A stretch of DNA of 64,000 bases from NCBI GenBank assembly GCA_944470555.2, contig OX104130.1, positions 64,113,160-64,177,159 of the forward strand. The letters run 5' to 3'. Below the pieces are notes generated by a model. The model had not been told where the DNA came from. It saw only the letters and a list, made by a program, of their open reading frames with translations, and ran no database searches. This DNA comes from Heterobilharzia americana. Taxonomy: Eukaryota; Platyhelminthes; Trematoda; Strigeidida; Schistosomatidae. The position numbers and the translations under genes were made by a program. Within the stretch, counting starts at the first letter, position 1. The number at the start of each line of letters is the position of its first letter. Positions 1 to 61,995 of the stretch are shown piece after piece.

Positions 1-200
1 GGGTAAACACGGAAGGTTGGGCATACGGCTAGCAACCCTACACCGGAAAACAAATCTAACCACTAAACAAACTACAAAGCACAAACAAAATATATAAAAT
101 AATAACAAACTTATTCCCCACTGGAATCGGAGAGGCGAAATTACACCAGCTGGTGAAAGCCTTCGGCAAGCCGATTGGCCGATGTGTCTCCTCTCACTCG

Positions 201-1075
201 ATGAACGCAAAAGTAAACGTGTGGATATGGAATGTCCACACCATGTATGAACCTAGCAAGGCAGTCCAGATTGCAAACGAGATGAGAAGATATAACATAG
301 AAGTGCTTGGAATATGCCAGGAATCTGCAGATGGAATGGAAGTGGACTCTCCAAACTCTCAACTGCACAATCGATAGTCTACTCCGATATTGTCAACCAG
401 ACGACAACCACGAGCACACTGAGTCTTCGAGTGGCTATCATGATATCCCCTCTCAACAGCATCGAAGGCTGTCATGCAGTGGGAACCAATCTCCTCCTCC
501 AGGATCATGACAGCAAGCTTCAACTCAAAAGGAAGGAAGGGAGGAAGAAAGGAAGGTGACAATCATTCAGTGCTACGCTACACTACGCTAGGCTACGCTA
601 CGCACCTACAAATAATGCAGAGCAAGAGAAGAAGGAGGAATTCCACAGACAACTGCAATCAACACTGGACAAGACCCCACCTCAGTTGGCGATATCAAAA
701 TTGTAATGTGTGGGGTGACATGAATGCCAGCCGAACTGGGAGCAGACAACACAGGAAGAGAAGTAAGCATGCGTCGAGAAGCGCTCAGTGAAATGATGAG
801 TGAGAATGGAGAACTGTTTGCAGATTTGTGCACATTCAACGATTTGGTGATTGGAGTCAGGCAGTGTGTTCAAACACAAGGATATCCACAAAGCGAGCGA
901 CATGGATTTGATCTCACCAGACACCGGGACACACTAAAAATCAGATCGACTTCATCTCAGTGTGAAGAAAGTGGAGACACAGTCAGCCCACTTGACACAA
1001 GGTCAAGAAGAGGAGGGGATGTAAGCTCACACCACTCACTATCCAGTGCAAGGAACCTACCTTCCAAATCAAGTT
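201..1075 (+). pseudogene. Apurinic-type endonuclease domain of RTE copy A, frameshifted
   Basis: The reading frame starts convincingly at ATG 201 (MNAKVNVWIWNVHTMYEPSK) and matches the start in copy B (MKVKVRIETWNVRIMYEPRK). The conserved endonuclease pieces then appear in different frames: IEVLGICQES, then WNGSGLSKL (frame change near 320), RIMTASFNSKGRK near 500, the CYAP-type strand near 570-605 destroyed by a pentanucleotide expansion, GDMNA near 718, and DVSSHHSLS near 1020-1050, where the catalytic SDHH motif reads SSHH. The SDHH aspartate is lost, so the domain would be dead even if the frame were restored. In such elements this domain nicks target DNA to prime reverse transcription. 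Confidence 0.75.
570..608 (+). repeat. CTACG pentanucleotide expansion inside the endonuclease frame
   Basis: Several imperfect CTACG(C) units occur in a row exactly where the undamaged element would encode the conserved Cys-Tyr-Ala-Pro segment. Copy B at 43093-43113 has a single unit-like stretch at this place. The tract breaks the reading frame in copy A. Confidence 0.6.
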
Positions 1076-3992: not shown

Positions 3993-4178
3993 TAACAAGT
4001 TAAATAATATAAGTGAAAAACTTGGGCACTGTGGTAGAATGTAGTTCCATATTAGATTTGTTTATTTGATATAAAGCGCACAGTGATACAGTATTATTTA
4101 CTTGATCAAGTAAATAATACTGTATCACTGTGCGCTTTATATCAAATAAACAAATCTAATATGGAACAAGTTAAATAA
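3993..4178 (+). mobile_element. Short fold-back mobile element, copy 1, with 14 bp target-site duplication
   Basis: The unit 4007-4164 is flanked by perfect 14 bp direct repeats AACAAGTTAAATAA at 3993-4006 and 4165-4178. It begins TATAAGTGAAAAACTTGGGC and ends CTAATATGG. Its distal part is a perfect palindrome. A second copy in inverted orientation (5309-5469) shares both ends and has its own duplication, so this is a transposed unit. It encodes no protein. The two duplications differ in length (14 and 11 bp), which fits target-primed reverse transcription better than a cut-and-paste transposase with a fixed stagger. No A box, B box or hammerhead core was recognised in it. The family name is unknown to me. 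Confidence 0.75.
4044..4167. repeat. Perfect 124 bp palindrome (62 bp arms, no spacer)
   Basis: The sequence reads identically on both strands from 4044 to 4167, with its centre between 4105 and 4106 in CTTGATCAAG. Extending one base each way breaks the symmetry. A spacerless palindrome this long can extrude as a cruciform and is usually unstable, so it is either recent or an assembly or copying product. Confidence 0.9.
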
Positions 4179-5297: not shown

Positions 5298-5480
5298 AAA
5301 TATGCTTAATTCCATATTAGATCTGTTTATTTGATATGATTATGAGCAATAATTTATGCTCGAAACGTAATCAAGTAAATAATACTGTATCACTGTACGC
5401 TTTATATCAAATAAACAAATCTAATATGAAATTACATTCTACCACAGTGCCCAAGTTTTTCACTTATACAAATATGCTTA
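5298..5480 (-). mobile_element. Short fold-back mobile element, copy 2, with 11 bp target-site duplication
   Basis: Inverted relative to copy 1. Direct repeats AAATATGCTTA occur at 5298-5308 and 5470-5480. Read on the minus strand it has the same start (TATAAGTGAAAAACTTGGGC) and the same end (CTAATATGG) as copy 1. The arms (about 5312-5338 and 5407-5432) pair with two mismatches and enclose a loop that contains a small inner inverted repeat (GAGCATAAATTATTGCTC on the minus strand). In copy 1 this loop is replaced by an exact complement of the proximal arm. Confidence 0.75.
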
Positions 5481-5935
5481 AGTCAAAAAACAGCATTTTA
5501 ATGGAAATAATGCACTAAGTGAAGAAAGACAGGCTTTTAATTATTAGTTTATAAGTGACCAACTTACAGATTTTGTGCAAGACATGAAACCAAAACCATG
5601 AATACTTATTTTCTGGAACAATGTTTAGTCCTATAGTTCATTTACATTTACATCTGTGAGTTATTTGACTTATTTAAATAGTATCATGTATCATTAACTT
5701 ACCGCTTTCAAAAACCTAAATGAAACTTGTTACCTATAAAGTGAAAAGTGAAATAAGTCACTACTTGACATATTAACAAGACCATTACTTCATGAAGAGT
5801 TTTGAGAAATAGTAACCTTCAGGAAGCCTGATGATGGTTACACTAAACTGAACTGAAAGGTCTGAGTTGGCGTATGAACTTCTGAAACGACAACACTGAT
5901 ACCCCCTTCAAGTTTCATCCTGATATTATTCATTT
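5481..5935. other. AT-rich spacer, no gene recognised
   Basis: No coding or RNA feature could be supported. Confidence 0.5.
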
Positions 5936-10012: not shown

Positions 10013-11216
10013 TATATAACTGTCCTTTGAGTTCCTAGTGGAATATAGGGATTCAGCAGCACGTCACCATTTCACTCTCCACTTCTCTATAGTCTTTCGA
10101 AACTGGCTCTATGACTGCCGACAACATTCCATTTCTTCCTCACACAACCTCTACTATATCAACCTCACCTCAGACACCCAAATCGTCGTTTCCCAAGTGA
10201 GTTACACTCGACGGGCTGGCCTGGCCTGGCCTTCCATATGATGTATCAAATCGGTCTTCTCAGAGTATGCACAATCCAATCCATCTCCACTTCATTCTGC
10301 ATATTTGCTGGCCAATGTGTTCTCGCTTAGTTCGTTGCCAGACACAGTTTTTGATGTCATGTATGTCCGTAGTCTGTAGGAAATGCCTTTCGTGACGTCT
10401 CAAGTCTCTCAACCATCACATAGAAGTACAGACTTGGCTGACATTAGTGTCAAAAATCCCCATCTGGTTCACGCCTCACGTTGAGTGGAGTGTGGTGGAG
10501 TAAATCTCCACACTGATTTCAGGTTGATGAAGGCCTGCCATGCTGTCTCTCCGATTCTGACTTTGGCGTGCTCATTTGTGCCTGTGCCGCCTGTAGTTGA
10601 AATGATGCTGCCTAGGTAGGTAGGTAGGTAGGTAGGTAGGTAGGTAAAGGAGATAACTTTCTTCAGATTTCTCCCCTTCATGGAGGATGGTGCCTCTTTT
10701 TGTTATTGTCGTTGTTGTTGGTTTGGTATCTTCATCACGTCTATCTCCTCTACATTCGCTTGAAGTCTCCTCTTCACTTCCCTGCCTCTTCTGTCAATCT
10801 GATGGATTCTGCCTGTATATCTTCGAGTTTGTGTGACGTTCAGACATGAATCATGATTGGTGAAATCCAAATCTTCTTAAGTCCTTTCATCAGTCAAATA
10901 ACGTATGCTCCTCTTCTCGCTCCTCACAGTGTGTTGGATGATCTAGGCGACCATAATCAGGAAGATCGCTGGTGATAGTAGGCAGCAACCTTGTCTTACT
11001 CCTGTCTTCACTTCAAAGACATCGCTTAATATTTATGCTTAGTGTGGAGAAGAGCATGATTCCTCGTCATTTTTTTGCAAAGTCTTACGGCATCCTTCTT
11101 TTGAACTTTGACAGGGTAGCTTTTCTTTGAATAATAGCCAGGTACCTTTCCTTCCTTCCTCTCGAACCCTCTGCAATAGTGGTGTGAGCATGTCCGCTGT
11201 TGTCTCTGTGTCTGTT
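10013..11216 (-). mobile_element. RTE-like element copy D, 5' truncated, internally deleted
   Basis: The 3' end on the minus strand is at the left edge (complement of the TTCCACTAGGAAC motif at 10030-10044). Matches continue to 11216, corresponding to about base 1870 of copy A. Compared with copy C it lacks the segment equivalent to C 20758-21081, which contains RT motif A; the junction reads AAAGACATCGCTTAATATT at about 11015-11033. The catalytic FADD is replaced by a sequence reading Phe-Thr-Asn-His-Asp (10865-10880). It therefore cannot have moved itself after these changes. It shares deletion, tetranucleotide tract and many substitutions with copy E. Confidence 0.8.
10613..10646. repeat. 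(TAGG)n microsatellite, about 8.5 units
   Basis: A pure tetranucleotide tract inside copy D, at the position where copies A and C have the non-repetitive codons for Thr-Tyr-Leu-Gly (CACCTATCTAGG in A, 2745-2756). On the coding strand it reads as CCTA units, giving a Leu-Pro-Thr-Tyr repeat. Confidence 0.95.
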
Positions 11217-19765: not shown

Positions 19766-22204
19766 TTATTATTATTATGACGATGATGATTTGTCCCTTG
19801 GGTTCCCAGTGGAACATAGGGCTTCAGTGCACTCTGTTGTCTGCAATCTTATCAACCCGGCTCCATGACAGCCCAAAACCTCTCATCTCCTCCTCGCACG
19901 ATCTCCTCCATGTCACCCTCGCCACGGACCCCCAACTCGTCGCTTCCCATCCAAGTTCCACTGCAGCAACTGACCTGGCGCTTGATGTCAAAGAATGGTC
20001 TTCACGGTGTATGCCCAATCCGCCTCCACTCCCTTCAACTGCATATTTGTTCAGCGATAGGTTCTTGGTTGGTCCGTTGCCATAGTTCTTTGTTGCTTAT
20101 TCTTTCTGGCCATCTGAGCTTCAGTAACGAGCCAGCGTAGGCAGCTGTTGATGAATATCTGTAGTTTGTTGGAAACGCCTTTCGTGACCCGCCAAGTCTC
20201 TGAACCATACAGAAGCACTGACTTGACGTTGGTGTTGAAAATCTGGATCGCGTTGACGCTTTATGCTGAGTGGAGTGCAGAAGATCTCTACACTGGTTTC
20301 AGGCTAATGAACGCCTCCCTTGCTTTTCCTATCCTGGCTGACTTTGTCATCCTCGTTTGTGCCACCTGTGGTTGAAACAGTGCTGTCTAGATAGGTGAAA
20401 GAGGCTAATTCCTTCAGGTTTCTCCGTTGATGGTGATTGGAGTTTGTTGTTGTTGTTGGTTGGGTATCTTCATCACCTCTGCCTTCTCTACGTTCACCTG
20501 GAGCATGTCCCGTCTTCGCTGCTTCTTCTGCCAACTTGTTAGTTTTTGCCTGTAGGTCTTCAAGTTTGTGTGACATTAGACAGAAGTCATCGTTGGCGAA
20601 ATCCAAATCTTCCAGGTTCTTTTCCCCGCTCCAACGTATCCCCCTTTTCTCGCTCCTCACTGTTTGTTGCATGATCCAGTCGACCACAATCAGGAATATC
20701 ATGGGTGATAGTAGGTGGCAACCTTGTTTCACTCCTGTCTCCACTTCAAAATCATCACTGAGCTTCCCATTGTGAATTACTTGGCTGGCATGTGACGTCT
20801 TCATATAATTATCGAATAAGGCTGATAAAGGTTTATGGTATTCCGTAGTGTTAAAGCAGGTGCCTGCCAAATTACTTCTCGGTCGACGCTGTCAAGGGCC
20901 TTAACAAAGTCGATGAAGTTGAGGTAGAAAGTTGACTGTCATTCTATGCTCTGTTCCATGATGATGCGTAGTATGGCGTTGCAATTTGGTCCGCACATGA
21001 TTTGTACTCCCTGAAGGCAGCCAGCCCGTTCTGGTTGTAATTTTGAATCCAGTGCATCCTTTAGCCTCTCCAGGATGATGCGGCTTAATATTTTACTTGG
21101 GGTGGACAGGAGAGTGATTCCACGCCAGTTCTTGCAAGCACTGAGGTCTCCCTTCTTCGGCAGTTTGACAAGGTAACCCTTCTTCCAATCACCAGGTACC
21201 TTTCCTTCCTTCCACACCTTCTGCAATAGTGGTGTAGTGTGAGCATGTCCGCTGTTGTCTCTGCATCTGTTTTGAGTGCTTCTGGTGGGAGTCCATCTGA
21301 CCCTGCTGCTTTCGCACATTTCAGTAGCTTTATGGCGCTGAGGACTTCATTTTTCATCTGAGGGCTTGTGTTTTCTTGTAGTTCTGTGGCTGAAGGTGAA
21401 ATGTCTGGATGAAGTGCAGGTGGTGGTGATGGTCGATTCAAGAGCTTTTTGAAGTAGTCAGCCCACTGTTTCTTATGGTGCTTTTCTTTGGTAATTAAGT
21501 TCCCTTCATCATTTTTTATTGGTTTCGTCTGCCTTGATCTCTTCCCTACCAGAAACTAAGTAACCTGGTTATTTGATATAATGTTGTCAGGTGTCTATCA
21601 CTCCTACCAGCCAACAGCCTGTTCTGCTTCACTTGCCAATGTGTCGTAGAAGTGTCTTTGGTCTTTCCGTGCAACCTCCTTCACTTCTTTGTCCAGTCTA
21701 GTGTTCTATACATTGTACTCAGTTCCTCTTCTCGTCGTTCATCCTTGCACTGGATCATCTTCACCACCACCATCTTCTTCTCCCTGCTCTATCAGCTTCC
21801 ACATGTCCGTTGAGATCCTTTCCTTGTCTTGTTTCATCTTCCTTCCTAATACGATTGTGCAGGTTTCTTTCCACACAGCTTCCAAAGAGTACCAGTGTTC
21901 ACCCATATTTTGTTCTGATGGCTGACGTAAAAATTTCCTTTATGGTTTTTCTTTCAGTTTCTGTTCTAGGCGTTGAACTTGAACTGTGGCCCATCACCAA
22001 CTTCCTCGAAGGCTTTCAACTTGATTTGAAAGGTAGGTTCCTTGCACTAGATAGCGAGTGGTGTGAACCTACATCTGCTCGCCTTCTTGATCTTGTGTCA
22101 AGTAGGCTGCGTCTCCATTTTCTTCAGATTGAAATCGTGTCGATCTGATTTTTAGTGTGTCCTGATGTCTGGTGAAATCGATGTCGGTTTGTGGATATCC
22201 TTGT
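19766..22204 (-). mobile_element. RTE-like element copy C, 5' truncated
   Basis: Minus-strand copy. Its 3' end is at the left: an ATT/AAT repeat tail at 19766-19779, then the complement of GTTCCACTGGGAACCC. Its 5' end stops at 22204, inside the endonuclease region (equivalent to about base 876 of copy A), the usual 5' truncation. It keeps the C-terminal Arg-rich segment (frame 20018-19824, including VTWRRSCEEEMRGFGLSWS), which is deleted in A and B, so it is the best witness for that domain. Frames are broken in several places. Confidence 0.85.
20304..21441 (-). pseudogene. Reverse transcriptase region of RTE copy C, frameshifted
   Basis: The fingers are well preserved in the frame 21319-20939: KKGYLVKLPKKGDLSACKNW, then RGITLLSTPSKILSRIILER. 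Motif A lies in another frame near 20900-20930 (NFVKALDSVDRE in spirit, Phe-to-Leu in KAFDS). The frame 20870-20304 has motif B as GVKQGCHLLSPM, with the same extra His as copy A. The catalytic box reads FANDD instead of FADD (near 20600), an extra codon that should inactivate it. LKELASFTYLDSTVSTTGGT follows near 20425-20366. Confidence 0.8.
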
Positions 22205-27383: not shown

Positions 27384-28970
27384 ATTATGATTATTTGTCC
27401 TTTGAGTTCCTAGTGGAACATAGGGATTCAGCAGCACGTCACCATTTCACTCTCCACTTCTCTGAAGTCCTTCGAACCTGGCTCCATGACTGCCCACAAC
27501 ATTCCATTTCTTCCTCACACAACCTCTACTATATCAACCTCACCTCAGACACCCAAATCGTCGTTTCCCATGCGGGTTCCACTCAACGGGATGGCCTGTC
27601 TGGCCTGCCGCATGATATCTCCAATCAGTCTTCTCAGTGAATGCACAATCCAATCCATCTCCACTTCATTCCGCATATTTGCTAGCCCATGTGTTCTTGC
27701 TTAGTTCGTTGCCAGACACAGTTTTTGATGTCATGTATGTCCGTAGTCTGTAGGAAATGCTTTACGTGACGTCTCAAGTCTCTCGACCATCACATAGAAG
27801 CACAGACTTGGCTGACACTAGTGTCAAAAATCCCCATCTGGTTCATGCTTCACGTTGAGTGGAGTGTGGTGGAGTAGATCTCCACACTGATTTCAGGTTG
27901 ATGAAGGCCTGTCATGCTGTCTTTCCAATCCTGACTTTGGCGTGCTCATTTGTGCCTGTGCCGCCTGTAGTTGAAACAATGTTGCCTAGGTAGGTAGGTA
28001 GGTAGGTAGGTAGGTAGGTAGGTAGGTAGGTAGGTAGGTAGGTAGGTAGGTAGGTAGGTAGGTAGGTAGGTAGGTAGGTAGGTGAAGGAGATAACTTTCT
28101 TCAGATTTCTCCCGTTCATGGGAGATAATGCCTCTTTTTGTTATTGTCGTTGTTGTTGGTTTGGTATCTTCATCACGTCTATCTCCTCTACATTCACTTG
28201 AAGTCACCTCTTCACTTCCCTGCCTCTTCTGTCAATCTGTTGAATTCTGCCTGTAGATCTTCGAGTTTGTGTGACGTTAGACATGAATCATGATTGGTGA
28301 AATCCAAATCTTCTTAGGTCCTTTCATCAGTCAAATAACGTATGCTCCTCTTCTCGCTCTTCACAGTGTGTTGGATGATCCAGTCGACCATAATCAGGAA
28401 GATCGCTGGTGATAGTAGGCAGCAACCTTGTCTTACTCCTGTCTTCACTTCAAAGACATCGCTTAATATTATGCTGAGTGTGGGCAAGAGCATGATTCCT
28501 CGTCAGTTTTGCAAAGTCTTACGGCATCCTTCTTTAGAAGCTTGACAAGGTACCACTTCTCCCAGTCAATCGCCAGATACCTTTCCTTCCTTCCTTCCAA
28601 ACCTTCTGCAATAGTGGTGTGAGCATGTCCGCTGTTGTCTCTGCATCTGTTTTCAATGTTTCTGGAGGAATTCCATCTGGTCCTGCTGCTTTCCTTCATT
28701 TCAGAAACTGTAGGGCGTGGGGTTCAGAACTTCACTTCTACTTTTGTCGGAGGGCTTGTGTTCACTGTTAGTTCATGCTTTGCTGGTGGTATTTCTGGAC
28801 GAGTTGGAGGTGGTGGTGGATTTGAGAATTTCTGATGTGGTCAACCCATCGTTTCCTCTGTTTCTTCTCTTTGTGGTAACTAAGTTTCATTCACATTTTT
28901 TATTGGCTCCATCTGAGTTATTCTATTCCCCACATAGTAACCTGGATATTTGATATAATGTTGTCGGTAA
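27384..28970 (-). mobile_element. RTE-like element copy E, 5' truncated, internally deleted
   Basis: Minus-strand copy whose 3' end lies at the left, next to TTTATTATGATTATT. It extends to about 28970, equivalent to roughly base 1560 of copy A. It is very similar to copy D along their common length and has the same internal deletion; the junction reads AAAGACATCGCTTAATATT at about 28452-28470. The missing part carries RT motif A. The catalytic box reads as in D (Phe-Thr-Asn-His-Asp, near 28290). A large tetranucleotide tract is inserted at 27987-28083. Confidence 0.85.
27987..28083. repeat. (TAGG)n microsatellite, about 24 units
   Basis: Pure TAGG units over 97 bp within copy E, at the same element position as the 8.5-unit tract in copy D. 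On the element's coding strand it would read as a Leu-Pro-Thr-Tyr tetrapeptide repeat. Confidence 0.95.
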
Positions 28971-42731: not shown

Positions 42732-43600
42732 ATGAAAGTGAAAGTAAGGATAGAAACATGGAATGTCCGCATCATGTATGAACCTAGAAAGGCTGCCCAG
42801 ATCGCAAAAGAGGTGAGAAGGTATAGCATAGAAGTGCTTGGAATCTGTGAGGAATCTACAGATGGGATGGAAGTGGACTCTCCAAACTGTCGACTGGAGA
42901 GGAGAGTCAACAATCTACTCCGATATCGTCACCCAGACGACAACCACCAGCACACTGAGTTTCTTAGTGGCTATCATGATGTCCTGAAGAGCATCAAAAG
43001 TTTTCATGCAGTGGGAACCAATCTCCTCCTGCAGAATGAGGATCATGACAGCAAGATGGATTCAAATCAAGAGGAAACAAAGTCACAATCATTCAATGCC
43101 AAGCTATGCACCTGCAAATAATGCAGATCAAGAGAAGAAGGAGAATTTCCACAGACAACTGCAATCAACACTGGACAAGACTCCAGTTGACGACATCAAA
43201 ATTCTAATAGGTGGGGCGACCTGAATGCCAAACTGTGAACAGACAACACTGGGAGATAACTTATCATAGGTCGAGAGGCACTCAGGGAAATGAATAAGAA
43301 TAGGGACTTGTTGTCAGACTTCTGCGCATCTAGTGATTTGATGATTGGAGGCAGTGTGTACAAAAGCAAGGATATTCATAAGGCAGCGACATGGATTTGA
43401 TTTCACCAGATGGACACACTACACTGAAAATCACATCGACTTGATTTCAATCTGAAGATAAAGGAGACGCAGTCTACTGGACACAAGATCAAGAAGATGA
43501 GCAGATGTAGGTTCACACCACTCACTATCTAGTGCGAGGAATCTACCTTCAAAATCAAGTTGAAAGCCTTCATGGAAGTTGGTGATAGACCACAGTTCAA
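42732..43600 (+). pseudogene. Endonuclease domain of RTE copy B, frameshifted
   Basis: ATG 42732 starts MKVKVRIETWNVRIMYEPRK and stays in the true frame for about 38 residues (IEVLGICEES). After that the frame is lost; the later part of the 129-codon frame is off-frame. The equivalent of the SDHH region (near 43505-43525) reads GSHHSLSS in spirit, so the catalytic Asp is missing as in copy A. Confidence 0.7.
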
Positions 43601-61889: not shown

Positions 61890-61995
61890 TATCCCGGTGG
61901 AAACAACATCACTCACTGGGAAGCAGGTACATCTAGCTGACGAGTTCCAAATAGGACAAAACCCGCATCCCGGATTCCACTGCTAGCCACTATCC
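61890..61995 (+). repeat. Sm-alpha-like repeat with mutated hammerhead ribozyme
   Basis: The order of segments is that of the schistosome Sm-alpha repeat: TATATCCCGGTGG, a CATCACTCACTGGGAAGCAGG block, the hammerhead, then GGATTCCACTGCTAGCC. Stem I 5' strand ATCTAG (61931-61936), core CTGACGA (61937-61943, an allowed CUGANGA), stem II GTTC/GGAC around CAAATA (61944-61957), then AAAA (61958-61961) where GAAA is required, and an ATC triplet (61967-61969). The first G of GAAA, needed as the general base, is changed to A, so the ribozyme should be inactive. Stem I has one mismatch. Confidence 0.7.

Follow-up and report, generated by a model that had tools for sequence, protein, structure and literature searches.

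The 64,000-nucleotide stretch of contig OX104130.1 of Heterobilharzia americana analysed here (hereafter referred to as the window) carries near its left end a fold-back unit of 157 bp at positions 4008-4164, the components of which are listed in Table 1 together with those of a neighbouring unit. Positions within the unit and its relatives are given in T numbering, where T1 is window position 4008 and counting proceeds along the plus strand, the sense strand of the element being the window minus strand. A first-pass annotation of the sequence had placed the unit at 4007..4164 (about 158 bp) between identical 14 bp direct repeats; the repeats are as described, and the left edge had been set one base too far out. 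The perfect spacerless palindrome that it had recognised is an inverted repeat of 62+62 nt (4044-4105 and 4106-4167), 100% complementary and with a spacer of 0, of which 3 nt (4165-4167) overlap the right direct repeat. The palindrome makes up the right three quarters of the unit, while 4008-4043 lie outside the inverted arms. The predicted folding energy of the unit is -88.3 kcal/mol, while shuffled sequences average -26.5 (sd 3.2; z -19; 0 of 200 shuffles as good). The unit has no coding capacity, as had been noted earlier, being without an ORF. A tRNA-gene search on the window found 0 genes, an Rfam search on the fold-back unit gave no hammerhead and 23 matches, mostly on the palindrome and all below gathering scores, and the head, used as a pattern, had 0 matches in genome_contigs and viral_contigs.

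Table 1. Components of the fold-back unit at 4008-4164 and of the neighbouring unit W2, in window positions
Feature	Position	Strand	Basis or remark
Left target-site duplication copy, 14 bp, AACAAGTTAAATAA	3994-4007		Exact match to right copy
36-nt 'tail' or head, T1-T36	4008-4043	-	Codons 3-15 of Penelope-like ORF; identical stretch at ORF start in L084
Tail-bearing arm, T37-T99, with start codon (T41-T43) and part of leader/pLTR	4044-4106	-	Longer copies continue into Penelope-like element
Putative join of two cDNA 3' ends, 2-nt AT overlap, palindrome centre	4105-4106		Inverted-repeat and copy comparison
Inverted tailless arm, from T99 down to about T38-T40 (codon 2)	4105-4164	+	Inverted-repeat match to tailed arm
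Right target-site duplication copy, 14 bp, AACAAGTTAAATAA	4165-4178		Exact match to left copy
W2 direct-repeat copy	5298-5309		Repeat pair of 12 bp
W2 tailless arm, T35-T65	5307-5337	-	Read as L048
W2 tail-bearing arm, T138 to T1	5331-5468	+	Read as L048
W2 other direct-repeat copy	5470-5481		Repeat pair of 12 bp

The second unit, W2, lies on the minus strand at 5468-5307, has its own 12-bp repeat and differs from the window unit in its middle. It had been noticed earlier as a related element with diverged arms and a loop; its existence is borne out, but it does not represent decay of the same palindrome, because the apparent loop belongs to a separate insertion with arms that end elsewhere (T1-T138 tailed, T35-T65 tailless). 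Other features of the window include broken retrotransposon ORFs at 1586-2065, 20304-21555 and 42732-43121, which we take to be derived from an RTE/SR2-like retrotransposon; repeats like these act as stub targets and unfilled sites. Perfect TAGG microsatellites are present at 10613-10646 (8.5 units) and 27987-28083 (24.2 units).

The host assembly (665 Mb, 337 contigs) was searched with the window copy as query and 40 of the 1,282 first-look candidates were scored, all 40 of which match the window unit. The same head, the same arm, a turn and then the inverted arm were found in all the 41 copies read (39 fetched and 2 in the window). Four of these (L022, L047, L026 and L030) were dropped for flanks shared with another copy, the groups being L021/L022/L047, L025/L026 and L029/L030, which leaves 37 independent insertions. 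Exact direct repeats in the 37 are 4-17 bp long with a mode of 13, and 30 of them have a repeat of 10-17 bp. Unfilled relatives of the target, in older repeats, span the junction for six (L009, L014, L016, L021, L025 and L029), the cleanest being that of L029, which matches window positions 5-218 without gaps at 80.4% identity; those of the other five have 67-84% identity and 0-27 gap positions. The first-pass annotation had proposed collecting genome copies with their flanks, and had regarded flanks shared far beyond the unit as the sign of a larger element or a segmental duplication; the figures of 30/37 own direct repeats, 6/37 unfilled relatives and 4/41 copies with shared flanks support its view of a multicopy sequence and a real target-site-duplicating insertion. 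Palindromes are often misassembled, and an assembly artefact or a segmental duplication would agree with the flanks common to the three groups above and to the pair L097/L109. However, the left flanks of 63 insertions tabulated from all the searches have no mutual match at E 1e-8, most of the insertions have direct repeats of their own and six have unfilled target relatives, which renders such an origin practically negligible.

The turning point varies among the copies. Junction strings were extracted for 29 of the 36 short copies (W2 being left out) and 28 of the 29 are distinct, the only recurring string being that of the window copy, found again in L010 with different flanks. Over 1,890 arm columns in the 37 copies, changes were observed in the outgoing arm only at 24, in the returning arm only at 23 and in both arms at 14, and 11 of the 14 correspond to a T94 C/A subfamily difference; the window copy has no changes. 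The palindrome had been thought to be recent or corrected by copying. Its identical arms are in agreement with a young age, whereas copy correction is not needed, because both arms can come from the same source sequence at insertion.

A few copies, including W2, extend beyond the usual turning point, and the parent element was searched for with the query T34-T124 taken from W2 (40 scored of 1,049 candidates, 30 given as loci). At some of these loci the sequence continues for at least 1.5 kb and leads, in antisense, to an ORF that has the motifs of a reverse transcriptase and of GIY-YIG. The reverse transcriptase of the ORF matches RVT_1 at 33.0 bits (cut-off 29.6), and related proteins number 2,916 at E 0.001 or better, including an S. 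japonicum reverse transcriptase (41%). Among named proteins, the ORF has its best relatives in Trichobilharzia and Schistosoma, with the best matches in Trichobilharzia regenti (75% over 73% of the query) and T. szidati (64% over 50%). Penelope-like reverse transcriptase sequences have been reported from Trichobilharzia szidati (PMC4465651). The GIY-YIG region that follows the reverse transcriptase has Y360, Y371, G373, R382, E385, H386, H412, E442 and N454 in common in all six aligned sequences, and the segment is 39% identical, with 99% covered, to P0027, which passes PF01541 at 26.2 bits. The score of the parent ORF itself against PF01541 is 15.4, under the cut-off of 22.6, as are those of its relatives P0006 and P0003, and a genome-wide PF01541 search (150 scored of 882 candidates) found two other places and not the parent ORF.

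The relation between the fold-back unit and this Penelope-like element (PLE) is seen in L084, where the tail and leader are repeated at both ends of the ORF and the head stands at the ORF start, M-E-LHSTTVPKFFTYI; L084 reads ...NTSNMELHSTTVPKFFTYINETYGLPVRRL... there. Judged by position, the start codon falls at T41-T43 and codons 3-15 at T1-T36. The head is therefore what is called the 'tail' in Penelope, and the arms consist of pLTR/leader sequence from the start codon to a hammerhead-like motif discussed below. The outer edge of the window tail, on the 4008 side, corresponds to a proposed reverse transcription start site, referred to here as site A, and the ORF start reads MELHSTTVPKFFTYI. 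Extra TAA or CATTAA letters to the left of the head in some copies were considered as a 3' repeat tail and rejected; the source reads TTTCATTAA there (L117), and the start of reverse transcription is therefore slightly variable. A tandem PLE array (L116 and L117) occupies C1:50457331-50470601, with six places at 2,654-bp spacing, and two further tandem pairs on C1 have a spacing of about 2,654 bp.

Judged by these sequence comparisons, the window unit is a stub of a Penelope-like retrotransposon, at the short end of the size range of its insertions. The first-pass annotation had suggested an undescribed type of short non-autonomous element, and this suggestion is withdrawn, as the longer copies run into the Penelope-like ORF. 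An independent SINE- or MITE-like fold-back family that spreads as hairpin RNA or DNA would be expected to be multicopy and ORF-less, with a constant head, direct repeats and many copies of similar size, all of which are observed, and the junction string common to the window copy and L010 is also in its favour. Yet the size range reaches long PLE copies with the same ends, 28 of the 29 extracted junction strings are distinct, the length of the direct repeat varies and the outer ends lack a matching inverted repeat, so that a family of this kind is considered very improbable. Its more specific forms were also examined and rejected: a hairpin-RNA family, as the junctions are nearly all different apart from the string recurring in L010; a SINE copied as a constant unit, for the same distinct junctions and the extension of copies into the PLE; and a MITE or Foldback DNA transposon, whose arms would have to include the left end (4008-4043 are outside) and whose direct repeats would be of fixed length rather than 4-17 bp.

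The arms of the insertions were examined in a set of 63 independent two-armed insertions with both outer ends visible, of which 37 were from the window-copy query, 20 from the query T34-T124 and six from a third query, T1-T93, which is without the second arm. The query T34-T124 holds just 3 nt of the tail, and the 20-pair set, with arm limits entered by hand, is thus unselected for the tail, in contrast to the 37 and the six. From the T34-T124 set were left out L050, L055, L056, L063, L065, L066, L071 and L075, which show a single arm in the stretch read (8 of 30 loci), and L057, in which the second arm is truncated; one-armed loci therefore exist. Among the 40 places of the T1-T93 search, ten in tandem arrays were not taken as insertions, two are L012 and L019, and 28 are L088-L115; from the latter, L088, L091, L092, L099, L102 and L111 (a single arm, or a second end beyond the stretch) and 16 loci running past T400, among them L097/L109 with shared flanks, were left out. 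L078-L087 are longer stretches of earlier loci. An exact single direct repeat of at least 8 bp surrounds the pair in 15 of the 20 T34-T124-query pairs, as compared to 3% of 358 shifted controls.

Arms in this set range from about 30 to 2,400 nt, and the tail is present on exactly one arm in all 63 insertions, with 0 of the 63 tabulated pairs having two tails or none. One arm starts from T1-T14 and the other from T30-T82, the start of the tailless arm being at T32-T45 in 58. For arms with long overlaps a common source is evident: in seven of the eight pairs overlapping by at least 250 nt the sister arm is the closest copy (the exception is L069), and private variants are common to sister arms, as in 11 of 12 in L070; both arms of a long pair therefore come from one source. 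In all the 24 overlapping pairs (L054, L098 and L107 were not included in the comparison), the sister arm gives the best match, alone or tied, in 13 and is surpassed by other copies in 11 (L049, L052, L061, L069, L073, L076, L079, L099, L100, L101 and L102), short overlaps saying little. In L079 (2868-3025) the tailed arm has four variants absent from its tailless partner and one that is shared, and its two arms may derive from different RNAs. L061 (1602-1655) has about 53 nt from T1384-T1436 at the turn of the two-armed insertion, probably a template jump.

Palindromic junctions of inverted Penelope copies have been attributed, as the preferred interpretation in a 2013 paper (PMC3846280), to snap-back self-priming, in which a single target-primed cDNA folds at its 3' end and copies itself into a palindrome. 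The perfect spacerless centres of several copies, arms that end within 10 nt of each other in 34 of the 63 pairs and the common source of long sister arms are all consistent with such self-priming, and the arms of the window copy itself are co-extensive; the case against it comes from the siblings. A copy cannot outgrow its template, yet in 17 of the 63 the tailless arm exceeds the tailed one by 10 nt or more (the reverse holds in 12), and the recurrent stop of the second arm at T32-T45 is left unexplained. In six insertions (L052, L058, L064, L077, L079 and L081) the excess of the tailless arm amounts to 454-1,983 nt, although 36 nt are present on the tailed arm only, and therefore neither arm could have been templated by the other. 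The direct repeats of these decisive insertions are 13 bp in L052, 10 in L079, 13 in L081, 7 in L077 and 5 in L064, with L058 having 9 bp at 10 nt off the edge; the weakest of the six could instead represent two adjacent insertions, and confidence in a two-ended origin is reduced, a direct repeat of at least 10 bp being present in only three of the six. Taken together, snap-back self-priming is regarded as improbable.

The window unit is very probably a single PLE insertion, with both ends of the target break having served as starting points for reverse transcription. The proposal builds on the continuity with the PLE, the identity of the tail with the first ORF codons, the presence of one tailed and one tailless arm, the independence of their lengths, the single direct repeat that encloses most pairs and the common source of the two arms in long pairs. 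The GIY-YIG endonuclease would nick the two target strands about 13 bp apart; one target 3' end would prime at RNA site A, about codon 15, and the other at a site B, about codon 2-3, some 37 nt nearer the RNA 5' end. Each cDNA would then grow in the direction of the RNA 5' end, unless synthesis ended prematurely, and the two 3' ends would be joined head-to-head. In the window copy both cDNAs would have ended at T97-T99 and been joined through the 2-nt AT overlap at T99, giving a perfect palindrome for which later correction is unnecessary. What we infer from the products is the order of these events, how the template is displaced or doubled and how the ends are joined. With sites A and B no more than about 60-100 nt away from what may be an RNA 5' end, short stubs would arise readily, and the stub, having no ORF, most likely does not spread by itself. 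In the study of a purified Anolis PLE, both strands are cleaved and extended, and reverse transcription starts at two internal sites with a spacing that matches the genomic tail (PMC11167929). No difference in start site between the strands is reported for it, whereas here the two ends always differ.

The lengths of the stubs may carry information on the RNA template. In the short set, fetched with the window copy as query, 63 of 74 arm ends lie at T91-T105, with 18 at T99, and 13 of the 37 tailed-arm ends are at T99, a figure partly biased by the query; the T99 peak is weaker in the T1-T93-query sample (L012, L088 and perhaps L098). In the T34-T124 and T1-T93 query sets, 16 of 52 arm ends lie at T131-T147, the query T34-T124 favouring ends beyond T124. 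T99/100 is the expected cut of a hammerhead without helix III (GAAAC-GUA/AUC), and the sense strand has a TATAAAA (T172-T166) whose first T precedes T131-T147 by 25-41 nt. The hammerhead-like motif includes GAGC/GCUC-GAAAC-GUA and can be folded (z -2.5); it has AUGAUUA(U) for the CUGAUGA box, and Rfam gave no hammerhead match. Compared with the CUGAUGA core box, AUGAUUA would, in hammerhead numbering, have A and U in place of C3 and G8, between which a pair is presumably still possible. Hammerhead C3 and G8 are known to matter, and a swapped pair partly restores cleavage (PMC11167929); PLE hammerheads are usually without helix III (PMC6155905), and in the Anolis PLE the hammerhead cut is 26 nt and the main reverse transcription start 111-118 nt into the ORF (PMC11167929). 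L088 (at about position 180) leaves the leader at exactly T99 and resumes in the same direction at about T1162, which would reflect either an internal deletion or a switch of template where the ribozyme is presumed to cut. The clusters at T91-T105 and T131-T147 are suggestive of cDNA ends that mark, by run-off, the hammerhead-like cut and the transcript 5' end, respectively. The lack of an Rfam hammerhead match and the altered core box count against this reading. A more tentative extension, to which we would give almost but not quite even weight, is that the asymmetry is obligate in vivo, with one of two protein/RNA units at the break starting at A and the other at B, and that ribozyme-cut RNAs (T99/100) and capped RNAs (near T140) both serve as templates, the cut yielding swarms of palindromic stubs.

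The insertion step of PLEs is still poorly understood, and the Anolis in vitro study of 2024 left open the steps after first-strand synthesis (PMC11167929). Sister copies record the mode of insertion, and the present genome is rich in small, fully readable integration products, with 63 tabulated here and more than 1,000 first-look candidates per search. These products indicate that each of the two ends has its own reverse transcription event, in a fixed asymmetric arrangement, which is an argument against self-priming, and with them second-end synthesis and the contribution of the ribozyme become countable, testable questions. The new elements of the present analysis are the one-tail rule over 63 insertions and the independent arm lengths as an argument against self-priming (six loci, three with a clear direct repeat), and possibly the link of stub length to RNA 5' ends; a literature search that covered part of the key papers found no PLE paper in which the pattern of a single tail is connected with priming at both ends. 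In genomes like this one, a short 'fold-back' repeat can turn out to be the stub of a PLE and not a new family, and annotation calls for caution.

Among the known systems, LINE-1 twin priming likewise involves priming on two strands, and the inverted part is normally derived from RNA upstream of the first cDNA. In the insertions described here, by contrast, the two cDNAs would be made on one and the same stretch of RNA, each from its own fixed start site; inverted, truncated copies within target-site duplications are common to both systems (PMC2837659). Schistosome Sm-alpha and the metazoan type I hammerhead retrozymes resemble the fold-back unit in being small, non-coding and repeated, with PLE machinery proposed for them (PMC7229834), but have a canonical type I hammerhead in tandem monomers, whereas the fold-back unit has no Rfam hammerhead. 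The window does contain one canonical type I hammerhead ribozyme at 61931-61975 on the plus strand (Rfam RF00163, Hammerhead_1, 43.4 bits), its single match at gathering score, which probably belongs to an Sm-alpha/retrozyme-like repeat. There is a close likeness to the Penelope/Poseidon PLEs, such as the Pen families of Adineta vaga (PMC3846280) and PAc of Anolis (PMC11167929), which have, as here, an ORF with reverse transcriptase and GIY-YIG and tandem pseudo-LTRs. Penelope elements are already known for head-to-head inverted pLTRs, for an optional tail of 30-40 nt on one pLTR that reads on into the beginning of the ORF, for direct repeats and for palindromic junctions, the last with the self-priming explanation of 2013 (PMC3846280), and two internal reverse transcription start sites with cleavage and extension of both strands are known in vitro from Anolis (PMC11167929). 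As against these known PLEs, the H. americana element has numerous stubs of about 160 bp, a one-tail rule counted in 63 of 63 insertions, arm lengths that point to two separate cDNAs and a hammerhead-like motif that departs from the canonical core.
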